Assembly (NCBI GenBank): GCA_944393745.1 | Contig: CALYBD010000006.1 | Location: forward strand, 1 to 64,000 | From: an uncultured Alphaproteobacteria bacterium | GTDB lineage: Bacteria; Pseudomonadota; Alphaproteobacteria; CAAGCB01; CAG-977 | Direction of reading: 5' to 3' | Length of the DNA: 64,000 nucleotides | Shown here: positions 1 to 15,335 of the stretch, piece by piece | How the letters are laid out: every line of letters begins with the position of its first letter | Numbering within the stretch: the stretch's first letter is position 1 | The notes under the pieces: model-generated | What the model saw: only the letters and a program-made list of their open reading frames with translations | Database searches by the model: none | What the model was told of the DNA's origin: nothing | Program-made: the position numbers and the translations under genes

Positions 1-84
1 CTTTTTCTTTGTCTTTTTAAACAAAAAAGCTTTTTTCCCTTTGTTTCTAAAAAATTATATTGTTACACTTTTGTTACAAATATG

Positions 85-100
85 CCCCCCCCCCCCCCCC
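85..100. repeat. Homopolymeric C tract (16 bases)
   Basis: Sixteen consecutive C residues lie 71 bases upstream of the chosen start of the cysteine-rich repeat protein. The tract is flanked by AT-rich sequence, with TTGTTA at 71-76 before it and TATAGA at 108-113 after it. Runs of this length are prone to slipped-strand length change. A role in phase-variable transcription is inference; an assembly or sequencing length error is also possible. Confidence 0.85.
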
Positions 101-171
101 ATGTTTTTATAGATGAAGTCCTCTGTTCGCTGAATAATAGTAACATCTTTATGTCTTATATGGAGGGATCT

Positions 172-2211
172 ATGAAAAAATTTCTTTTGTTTCTCTTATT
201 TTGTTGTTTCGTGCCCCCTACGGCGCACGCAAACGATTCTGTCTTTAATACAAAAGCCGCCTTCTCTTTGGCTAAAGTGGTCAAGTTGGGAAGAGGTTCG
301 TCTTATTCCGTTGGTGGTATCAATGCCATTGATACCGGCGCCACAATTGATAACGATAAAGAATGTGAAATCGGTTGTCAGACCTGTGATACAAAAACGG
401 GAAAATGTTCAAAATGTCAATCCGGATATGGCATGAAAAACGGAACCTGTACGCCGGGAACAAATTATTACAACGCTGATAAATCGGCTTGCTACATTGT
501 TACCAATGACTATGTCGGTTGGTGTGGCGGCGGAGATCATTCCGAAGCATATCTATGTGTGGAAGATGGCAATGTCGCTGGCATGGAAGGCTTTGTAAGA
601 GACGATCCGACAGGATCTGTCATCAAAGTTTCTTTAAGCGATTGTCAAAAATCAGGTGCCAAAATCGTTACCTGCGCTGCCGGATACGGCATGAAAAACG
701 GTTACTGCACACGGGGAACAAATTATTACAATGCTGATAAATCGGCTTGCTACATTGTTACCGATGACTTTATCGCTTGGTGTGGCGGCAGCGATCATTC
801 CGATGCATACTTATGTGTGGAAGAAGGCAATGTAAACAGTATGGAAGACTTCGTGAACGAAGATCCGTCAGGGTCCGTTATTCAGGTAAGTTCCAGTGAT
901 TGCCGGATTATGAACGCCAGAGCTGTTAAATCTCCGAAATGTCAATCCGGATACGGCATGAAAAACGGAACCTGTACGCCGGGAACAAATTATTACAACG
1001 CTGATAAATCGGCTTGCTACATTGTTACCGATGACTTTATCGCTTGGTGTGGCGGCAGCGATCATTCCGATGCATACTTATGTGTGGAAGAAGGCAATGT
1101 AAACAGTATGGAAGACTTCGTGAACGAAGATCCGTCAGGGTCCGTTATTCAGGTAAGTTCCAGTGATTGCCGGATTATGAACGCCAGAGCTGTTAAATCT
1201 CCGAAATGTCAATCCGGATACGGCATGAAAAACGGAACCTGTACGCCGGGAACAAATTATTACAACGCTGACAAATCGGCTTGCTACATTGTTACCGATG
1301 ACTATGTCGGTTGGTGTGGCGGTAGCGATCATTCCGAGGCATATCTATGTGTGGAAGAAGGCAATGTAAACAGTATGGAAGCCTTCGTGAAGGAAGATCC
1401 GACAGGGTCCGTTATTCAGGTAAGTTCCAGTGATTGCCGGATTATGAACGCCAGAGCTGTTAAACCTCCTGCTTGTCCGACAAACTGTTCAACATGCAGT
1501 AACGGTACCTGCACAAAATGCAAATCCGGATATTACCTCAGCGGCGGAAAGTGTATCGTTGAAACTCCGGATTCCTGCGGCACGAATTATTATTGGTCTG
1601 AAACAGAAACTATGCCGGGGTCAGGATCTCATTGTATTGCTTGCGGATATAAATACGGACCGTGTTTACAATGTAACGCCACTCAGTGTACAAAATGCTC
1701 TAATGGCTATCTCATGGTCAATAATAGCTGTCAGCATTATCAGAGCGCCTGTACACAACTGGGATGGACCAGCTATGTCACCGCAACGTCATCAAACGGT
1801 TTAAGCAGCGCCTCAAGCTCTTGGGGAAGTTCAAACAACTGCCGCAGTGGCGTGCAGACTTATATGAGATTTCAGATCAGTGACTCCTTATGGGGAACCT
1901 GCGTTAAATGCGCTCCTTCTTCCAGTACCAGTTCGTGCGGAACGTATCCGAATTGTAACTCTGGTTGTTGGTACGGACCAAGCAAAAACTCTTGCATCAA
2001 ATGTGATGCAAACGCGTCAACGTGTTCCAAAAGCACAATTACGTGTAAACCCGGTTATGTTTTGATGGGCGGTTATGTCTGTGCAAGCTGTGCCAGCGGA
2101 TGTAAAGCATGCACAACTGCCGGCGATCCGTATGCCTGTACCTCCTGTACCAGCGGAAGAGTGCCCAAAGACCACAATGGTAACTACACAAGCAAAGGAA
2201 AATGCAGTTAA
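172..2211 (+). CDS. Secreted cysteine-rich tandem-repeat protein
   Basis: Exported protein of 679 aa, function unknown. The start at 172 is preferred because GGAGG lies at 162-166 and the product opens with a clear signal peptide (MKKFLLFLLFCC, cleavage after AHA). The frame stays open up to an ATG at 82 just before the poly-C tract, but that ATG has no ribosome binding site. The body has four units of 86-89 aa, each carrying CQSGYGMKNGTC then NYYNADKSACYIV, followed by a C-terminal region of CxxC-rich furin/EGF-like modules (for example CSTCSNGTCTKC). The many paired cysteines suggest a disulfide-bonded surface or extracellular protein. Units 2 and 3 are almost identical in DNA, suggesting recent duplication. 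It stands alone and ends in a strong terminator. Adhesin-like or host-facing roles are guesses from architecture only. Confidence 0.85.
   Translation: MKKFLLFLLFCCFVPPTAHANDSVFNTKAAFSLAKVVKLGRGSSYSVGGINAIDTGATIDNDKECEIGCQTCDTKTGKCSKCQSGYGMKNGTCTPGTNYYNADKSACYIVTNDYVGWCGGGDHSEAYLCVEDGNVAGMEGFVRDDPTGSVIKVSLSDCQKSGAKIVTCAAGYGMKNGYCTRGTNYYNADKSACYIVTDDFIAWCGGSDHSDAYLCVEEGNVNSMEDFVNEDPSGSVIQVSSSDCRIMNARAVKSPKCQSGYGMKNGTCTPGTNYYNADKSACYIVTDDFIAWCGGSDHSDAYLCVEEGNVNSMEDFVNEDPSGSVIQVSSSDCRIMNARAVKSPKCQSGYGMKNGTCTPGTNYYNADKSACYIVTDDYVGWCGGSDHSEAYLCVEEGNVNSMEAFVKEDPTGSVIQVSSSDCRIMNARAVKPPACPTNCSTCSNGTCTKCKSGYYLSGGKCIVETPDSCGTNYYWSETETMPGSGSHCIACGYKYGPCLQCNATQCTKCSNGYLMVNNSCQHYQSACTQLGWTSYVTATSSNGLSSASSSWGSSNNCRSGVQTYMRFQISDSLWGTCVKCAPSSSTSSCGTYPNCNSGCWYGPSKNSCIKCDANASTCSKSTITCKPGYVLMGGYVCASCASGCKACTTAGDPYACTSCTSGRVPKDHNGNYTSKGKCS
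412..1470 (+). repeat. Four in-frame tandem repeats of 258-267 bp
   Basis: The shared string acaaattattac recurs at 460, 718, 985 and 1252, giving periods of 258, 267 and 267 bp. The blocks 718-984 and 985-1251 differ at one base (T732 versus C999). Unit 1 is three codons shorter and more diverged; unit 4 diverges in its middle. All periods keep the reading frame. Confidence 0.95.
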
Positions 2212-2226
2212 AAAATATCATCAAAA

Positions 2227-2257
2227 GAGAGCCTTTCTGCAGAAAGGCTCTCTTTTT
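2227..2257 (+). terminator. Rho-independent terminator of the repeat protein gene
   Basis: A perfect 12-bp inverted repeat (GAGAGCCTTTCT / AGAAAGGCTCTC) is followed by five T, starting 15 bases after the stop codon. Confidence 0.9.
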
Positions 2258-14811: not shown

Positions 14812-15335
14812 GTATACGGATAAAAATCCGAAAGATTTTGTTCCCGCCCGTTTTTATGACAGACCGATATGAACCGGTCGTTAATATTTCTTTGTAAACG
14901 GATCGGATCGGATTGAATTCAAAATCAACAGCTTTATTGCGACACGGAAATCAGAACTTTCCGAAAGAATGTACCTGTAATTCTTTCCCCGTCAGAGTGC
15001 CGATAATATTCGTATATTCTGTTCAATCACCTTTTTTTGCTTTCCTGCCGCCGGCACGACCTAATCCCCGCCGGGAGGGCATGATCCCCCCTACGGGTAG
15101 TACTGGTCGTACGGACATCAGTTTTTTTATGGTTCTTACCGCAAGCACGACCTAATCCCTGTCTGGAAGACGTTAAGCCTGTGGCGCCGCCACCCCGCCG
15201 GGAGGGGATGATCCCCCTACGGGTAGTAGCCGTACGGACATTAGTTTTTTGGGGTTCTTGCCGCTAGCACGACCTAATCCCCTGTCGGGAGGACGTTGTC
15301 CCCGTACGGGTAGTACCCGTGGCGCTGATCAACCT
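14812..15335. other. Long spacer between convergent genes
   Basis: There is no supported gene in these 524 bases. The first 240 bases are unremarkable, while 15054-15330 is a cluster of GC-rich degenerate repeats with palindromic cores, described separately. Short open frames here are shadows. Confidence 0.7.
15054..15330. repeat. Cluster of three degenerate GC-rich palindromic repeats
   Basis: Three direct copies begin with GCACGACCTAATCCC at 15054, 15145 and 15267. Each holds a core TACGGGTAGTA (at 15092, 15218 and 15305). The first two also share CGTACGGACAT followed by AGTTTTTT and GGTTCTT. The third core extends to the odd palindrome ACGGGTAGTACCCGT at 15306-15320. Unit B is about 30 bases longer than unit A, and unit C is cut at the end of the J-domain gene. 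The composition differs from neighbouring DNA. It resembles an extragenic palindromic repeat family. Confidence 0.85.

Follow-up and report, generated by a model that had tools for sequence, protein, structure and literature searches.

Organization of the locus

The window, i.e. the whole stretch of 64,000 nucleotides that was analyzed, runs from the first base of contig C6 in a 2.25-Mb genome of 60 contigs (hereafter G000), which leaves 84 bp on the 5' side of an uninterrupted run of cytosines. Behind this tract lies a one-gene unit (Table 1), whose product contains four cysteine-containing repeats of 89 aa, corresponding to four DNA repeats of 267 bp (positions 412-1469, 88% matches). A Pfam search with this protein recovered 0 families past the cut-off; the weak sub-threshold matches were to the Giardia VSP and laminin-EGF models and are probably an effect of cysteine spacing. 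Paralogs of its N-terminal region were found in G000 itself and in the genomes G001 and G004, the alignments being limited to the first ~94 residues.

Table 1. Features at the 5' end of the window
Feature	Position	Strand	Remarks
Conserved upstream element TTGTTACACTTTTGTTACAAATATG, 25 nt	60..84	+	Candidate binding site of an activator or of the alpha subunit of RNA polymerase
C16 homopolymer tract	85-100	+	Putative variable-length spacer; read from the window sequence
ATGTTTTT block, consensus ATRTTTTT	101..108	+	Cross-species identity 81% versus 53% shuffled
-35-like hexamer TAGATG	110..115	+	Best fixed-offset pair and conserved block
-10-like hexamer AATAAT	133..138	+	Footprint and fixed-offset scan
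Shine-Dalgarno sequence GGAGGG	162-167	+	Read from the sequence
Secreted Cys-rich repeat protein, 679 aa	172..2211	+	Signal peptide MKKFLLFLLFCCFVPPTAHA; N-terminal family motif AFSLAKVVKLGR
Terminator-like hairpin GAGAGCCTTTCTGCAGAAAGGCTCTC with T run	2227..2257	+	Ends the one-gene unit; read from the sequence

The tract is real and its length far exceeds what chance would produce, as is typical of simple-sequence contingency loci with a homopolymer in a regulatory region. Under the third-order statistics of the window (P(C|CCC)=0.228), C runs of at least 16 are expected 4e-6 times per 64 kb. Across G000 there are 22 C runs of at least 12, against 0.06 expected, and 26 of at least 9, against about 4.8 expected; these lengths, as assembled from metagenomes, may be inaccurate, above all at contig ends. 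Loss of mismatch repair was considered as a cause of the long tracts and rejected, both mutS and mutL being intact in G000.

The 84-bp arm with which contig C6 starts is 98.8% identical to an arm of contig C51 and only 94% identical to the end arm of contig C32, so bases 1-84 of the window may represent an ambiguous or chimeric assembly. The mutL gene of G000 lies on contig C32, which terminates in a secreted-protein gene and a cassette with a 16-base tract, and in G004 mutL adjoins the phosphomannomutase gene, the counterpart of the window locus. The gene order at the window locus is therefore likely to be mutL, secreted-protein gene, cassette, window gene and phosphomannomutase. In the flanks of the phosphomannomutase locus of the congeners we found no adjoining cassette-type gene, so tract length (n) offers no comparison at one and the same site.

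A dispersed module upstream of secreted proteins

The window tract is one instance of a module with the architecture TTGTTACACTTTTGTTACAAATATG - C(n) - ATGTTTTTATAGA..., which is present in 14 copies in G000 upstream of secreted Cys-rich proteins. A search with the pattern (T/A)TGTTACACTTTTGTTACAAATATG for the upstream element returned 14 matches in this genome and 0 with the reversed pattern as control. Thirteen of these exact or near-exact copies are joined to a C run of at least 9, and the remaining one, on contig C46, to a run of 7 at the contig end; run lengths at the 14 cassettes span 7-21, with the values at contig ends being unreliable. Two further tracts, on contigs C48 and C59, precede genes of the same kind and have unreadable upstream ends. 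None of the 14 copies is more than 1 kb from a contig end, indicating that the assembly breaks at copies of the module. On contigs C10, C31, C39, C46 and C48 the ends carry low-complexity or divergent sequence within 40-80 bases past the poly-C, which is probably noise of sequencing or assembly that follows the homopolymer. We also observed a GC-rich intergenic repeat of ~122 bp (GTACTGGCCGTACGGGCATCAGTTTTTT...), with tandem copies at positions 15066-15297 of the window, which is often found immediately 5' of poly-C cassettes (L026, L029, L031, L037, L045) and also elsewhere in the genome.

The upstream element is built of two TGTTACA units (61-67 and 72-78) set 11 bp apart. TTGTTA occurs twice, at 71-76, where the original prediction had placed a -35 element, and again 11 bp further 5' at 60-65, a copy that it had not mentioned. 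A search of the rest of G000 for this tandem repeat, aimed at identifying a regulator, recovered matches with at most one mismatch at the cassettes only, and no regulator was found by this route.

Wherever the contig continues beyond a cassette, a Shine-Dalgarno sequence and a start codon are seen about 70-86 nt past the tract, and the Shine-Dalgarno sequences of the other cassettes resemble that of the window. The genes so placed code nearly without exception for secreted, Cys-rich proteins, many of which share the N-terminal motif FxxAKAxKLGR. The genes on the 5' side of the cassettes are mostly unrelated housekeeping genes, suggesting that the module and its gene are dispersed as a unit. 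Two family members that are devoid of poly-C (L153 on contig C11 and L155 on contig C12) each occupy the second position of a two-gene unit after another secreted protein; their upstream regions are alike, and unlike the cassette.

Phyletic distribution and variation in tract length

Tracts of at least 12 are unevenly represented among the seven genomes of the genus: 22 in G000, 9 in G001, 16 in G003 and 10 in G004, versus 0-1 in G002, G005 and G006. The same module is present in three congeneric species (G001, G003 and G004). Scanning GTDB r220 with the exact pattern of the window's version of the module gave 0 matches; a degenerate upstream element followed by six cytosines, a selective pattern that more distant versions of the module could escape, retrieved three MAGs only (BRZ_E__bin160, RGIG5000 from roe deer rumen, and BRZ_DM__bin96), all of them congeners. 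A search of viral contigs for the module gave 0 matches. Given that the module was recovered in assemblies of at least two different projects, it is unlikely to be an assembly artefact.

In four species, the 30 tracts with a gene attached range from 9 to 18 in length, with a narrow spread of 13-15 in G003. Within G000, cassettes sharing 93-100% identity in their promoter flanks have n of 12, 13, 14, 16 and 16, and two genes that are 98% identical over 702 bp (L035 on contig C30 and L039 on contig C42) are preceded by tracts of 12 and 14, respectively. Such differences between near-identical copies are what slippage predicts, as variation among copies rather than among cells; the differing lengths expected of a contingency locus are thus observed between paralogous copies in one genome and not between alleles of one locus.

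Several other tracts belong to a different context. In a sister genus (g3), a secreted relative (L169; G008:C36, tract at 282, - strand) with the motif SFQVADAVKLGL has 12 cytosines inside the coding sequence just after the signal peptide; with n=12 its frame meets a stop after 32 aa, and with n=14 it would be open to the contig end. Judging from these frames, that genus appears to use frameshifts for switching a protein of the cassette type. Three loci in the congeners (L107 and L108 in G003, and L079, an acyltransferase-like membrane protein, in G004) contain C/G tracts of 13-14 within long reading frames, all out of frame as assembled, and by their frames look like ordinary coding contingency loci. 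At L111 (G003:C40:11186) a 16-base C tract lies at or just 5' of the start of a frame of more than 600 aa with the look of a restriction-modification or helicase-type protein.

Predicted position of the core promoter

We aligned the cassettes on the 3' boundary of their tracts, with +1 denoting the first base past the tract, and obtained a consensus of ATRTTTTT at +1..+8, TxGA at +10..+13 and AANAAT at +33..+38. For a phylogenetic footprint, identity in 237 between-species cassette pairs drawn from four species was set against a letter-shuffled control. Fixed blocks emerged on both sides of the tract, namely the upstream element (79% versus 34% shuffled), the +1..+8 block, the -35 block at +9..+15 (54% versus 33%) and the -10 block (66% versus 49%). 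Outside them, the 30 nt on the 5' side of the upstream element were at the chance level (30% versus 30%), the intervals +16..+25 and +26..+32 gave 36% versus 31% and 43% versus 29%, and two segments beyond the -10 block gave 31% versus 30% and 34% versus 35%. Conservation does not extend to the leader, to the sequence ahead of the element or to the greater part of the 17-nt spacer.

A scan of 12 divergent cassettes for sigma70-type pairs at fixed offsets placed the best pair at +10/+33, with a spacer of 17 bp and a score of 1.63 versus -2.03 for the next unrelated pair. This score was reached by 0 of 2000 register-shifted controls and by 42 of 3000 column-permuted matrices (about 1.4%), which we consider good, though not overwhelming, support. 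The -35-like hexamer of G000 is a poor match, and its counterparts are TTGAGA in G003, TGGAAC in G001 and TAGAAG or TGGACT in G004; those of the -10-like hexamer are AAGAAT, AAAAAT and AATAAT or AAAAAT, in the same order. The best-supported assignment for the window is thus a core promoter formed by the two hexamers of Table 1, lying entirely 3' of the tract, with a transcription start predicted near position 145.

A model for the module and its alternatives

Judging from the arrangement and conservation of these elements, we consider it rather probable that the tract serves as a variable-length spacer in a phase-variable promoter module dispersed over the genome, with slippage tuning both distance and helical phase. 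The tandem TGTTACA element would be bound by a protein, or by the C-terminal domain of the RNA polymerase alpha subunit, and the bound factor would contact RNA polymerase at the weak sigma70-type core promoter. Tandem sites with an 11-bp period have the geometry typical of OmpR/PhoB-type regulators, and given this period a protein of that type is a possible factor on the TGTTACA repeat. Each cytosine would add 1 bp to the distance between element and core promoter and rotate one relative to the other by about 34 degrees, with n being altered by slipped-strand mispairing during replication. The tract would thereby act, probably, as an unstable spacer that tunes each secreted surface-type protein up or down at random, such that every cell in a population might express some of the secreted Cys-rich proteins strongly and others weakly, in a combination of its own. 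A more far-reaching version, in which ~14 secreted-protein genes are independently tuned by helical phasing, the homopolymer of each lying between a regulatory element and a core promoter common to all, and in which the shared cassettes also serve as crossover points for gene exchange, is speculative and we regard it as doubtful; if true, it would mean that a rumen-type bacterium couples antigenic variation with combinatorial phase variation.

The main rival is a promoter of the Bordetella fim kind, lacking a functional -35, in which TRTTTT at +2..+7 (102-107) is the -10 and an activator at the tandem element reaches over the C tract to the polymerase, the tract standing in for the -35 and spacer region. 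This arrangement draws on +2 being the top single fixed -10 offset among the 12 representatives (0.53 versus 0.20 for +33), on the block at +1..+8 being the most conserved one 3' of the tract, on the presence of TATTTT or TATCTT in G001 and G003, and on a range of n similar to the 11-16 cytosines of fim3 (PMC10172299). However, G004 and the window's own species have TGTTTT as this hexamer, without the nearly essential A at -11, and the arrangement offers no reason for the conservation of +10..+15 and +33..+38 at a distance of 17 bp. We therefore judge it unlikely, while taking it more seriously than any of the readings below.

The cassette could also be a recombination junction, where shared sequence enables exchange of genes behind different flanks and tract length is a by-product. 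The 98%-identical genes on contigs C30 and C42 lie behind different upstream flanks, with homology stopping near the tract, and copies on one contig of G001 have a common promoter and N-terminus and diverge beyond it. Yet the conserved blocks are in promoter geometry and are short between species (25 plus about 38 nt), and chimeras assembled at repeats could mimic such a mosaic, given the position of all 14 copies near contig ends; the pattern of the C30 and C42 pair may reflect either gene exchange at the cassette or an assembly chimera. As an account of the module, a junction of this kind is improbable.

Two further readings are less probable still. Translational switching, which the original prediction had offered as a second option, would have an ATG before the tract opening an alternative frame that goes on or off with n. 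The window does have such an ATG (82-84), which at n=16 opens a frame of 709 aa continuous with the gene (82..2211), as had been predicted, and a poly-C tract does lie within the coding sequence of the sister-genus relative L169. But the window ATG has no Shine-Dalgarno sequence, every cassette gene has its own ribosome-binding site and start ~70 nt past the tract, the tract is preceded by ATA in 10 of 10 copies of G003 and by TAT or other triplets, never ATG, in G004, and an in-frame stop between tract and start closes 16 of the 30 cassettes, including three ATG-bearing copies in G000; as a general option for the module, switching of this kind is thus very improbable. An equally slim chance is left to the view that the lineage just tolerates poly-C and that expression is unaffected by it. 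Several tracts of at least 10 do occur outside cassettes in all genomes, but three congeners have 0-1 tracts of at least 12, the position of the tract between two conserved blocks varies by hardly a base, both mismatch repair genes are intact, and some of the other tracts sit inside genes at typical contingency positions.

Hardly tenable is the arrangement of the original prediction, with the tract as spacer between a -35 TTGTTA and a -10 TATAGA (108-113): both hexamers and the 31 bases between them are present, but a 17-bp spacer needs n of ~2 against the observed 9-18, and TATAGA is replaced by GATGGA, ACTGGA or TCTTTA in the sister species and ranks only 9th among the fixed -10 offsets, so that this assignment is probably wrong. 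What stands of it is the homopolymer itself, which lies in the regulatory DNA of a secreted repeat protein and is very probably a phase-variation tract prone to slippage.

Implications and comparison with known systems

Homopolymer-controlled promoters have so far been described for a handful of genes in well-studied pathogens. The 14 loci, together with three sister species, provide many natural length variants of one promoter for comparison, and the spacing model proposed above predicts that expression should be periodic in n, with a period of about 10-11 bp. The module may also explain why assemblies of this genome break at these genes, and surface variation of the bacterium is consequently likely to be under-recorded in metagenome data. 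The kind of mechanism is already known; what is new, as far as our limited literature search extends, is a single poly-C module at 14 loci of an uncultured gut alphaproteobacterium, shared within its genus, with the tract 5' of the core promoter.

In Neisseria porA and opc the tract is the spacer between -35 and -10. These genes share with the module a homopolymer-controlled promoter of a surface protein, and differ in that the geometry here disallows the tract as such a spacer. Another likeness is to fim2, fim3 and fimX of Bordetella pertussis, where poly-C tracts of 10-18 lie in the promoters of several dispersed surface-antigen genes beside a conserved upstream box; there the length of the C-stretch sets the spacing between activator and polymerase, and gain or loss of one C can stop transcription (PMC10172299, PMC1891110). 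The fim tract lies between BvgA-bound DNA and the -10, whereas here a predicted -35/-10 pair with a 17-bp spacer follows the tract; a -10 at +2 without a -35 is possible in G001 and G003 and poor in G000 and G004. The module also differs in its tandem TGTTACA element, its 14 copies versus a few, and its unrelated lineage and proteins, with secreted Cys-rich repeat proteins that gave no Pfam fimbrial match in place of a downstream fimbrial subunit.

In overall layout the module resembles nadA of Neisseria meningitidis and sabA of Helicobacter pylori, in that the footprint and fixed-offset scan place both -35 and -10 on the 3' side of the tract, ahead of a predicted start, with the conserved 25-nt element on its other side. 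At nadA a repeat tract likewise lies 5' of the core promoter, between it and distal control sites, and expression varies quasi-periodically with the number of TAAA repeats (PMC2791445); that system involves a tetranucleotide, the repressor NadR with IHF, and a single gene, whereas the steps here are of 1 bp. At sabA the length of a T tract close to the -35 alters how UP-like elements line up axially with the core promoter (PMC4081817). The module resembles it in having a homopolymer just 5' of the predicted -35, which would shift the alignment of upstream elements to the core promoter in a rheostat-like manner at several genes, and differs in that its tract is of C and its upstream element a conserved tandem repeat, as against the T tract and A-box UP-like elements of sabA.
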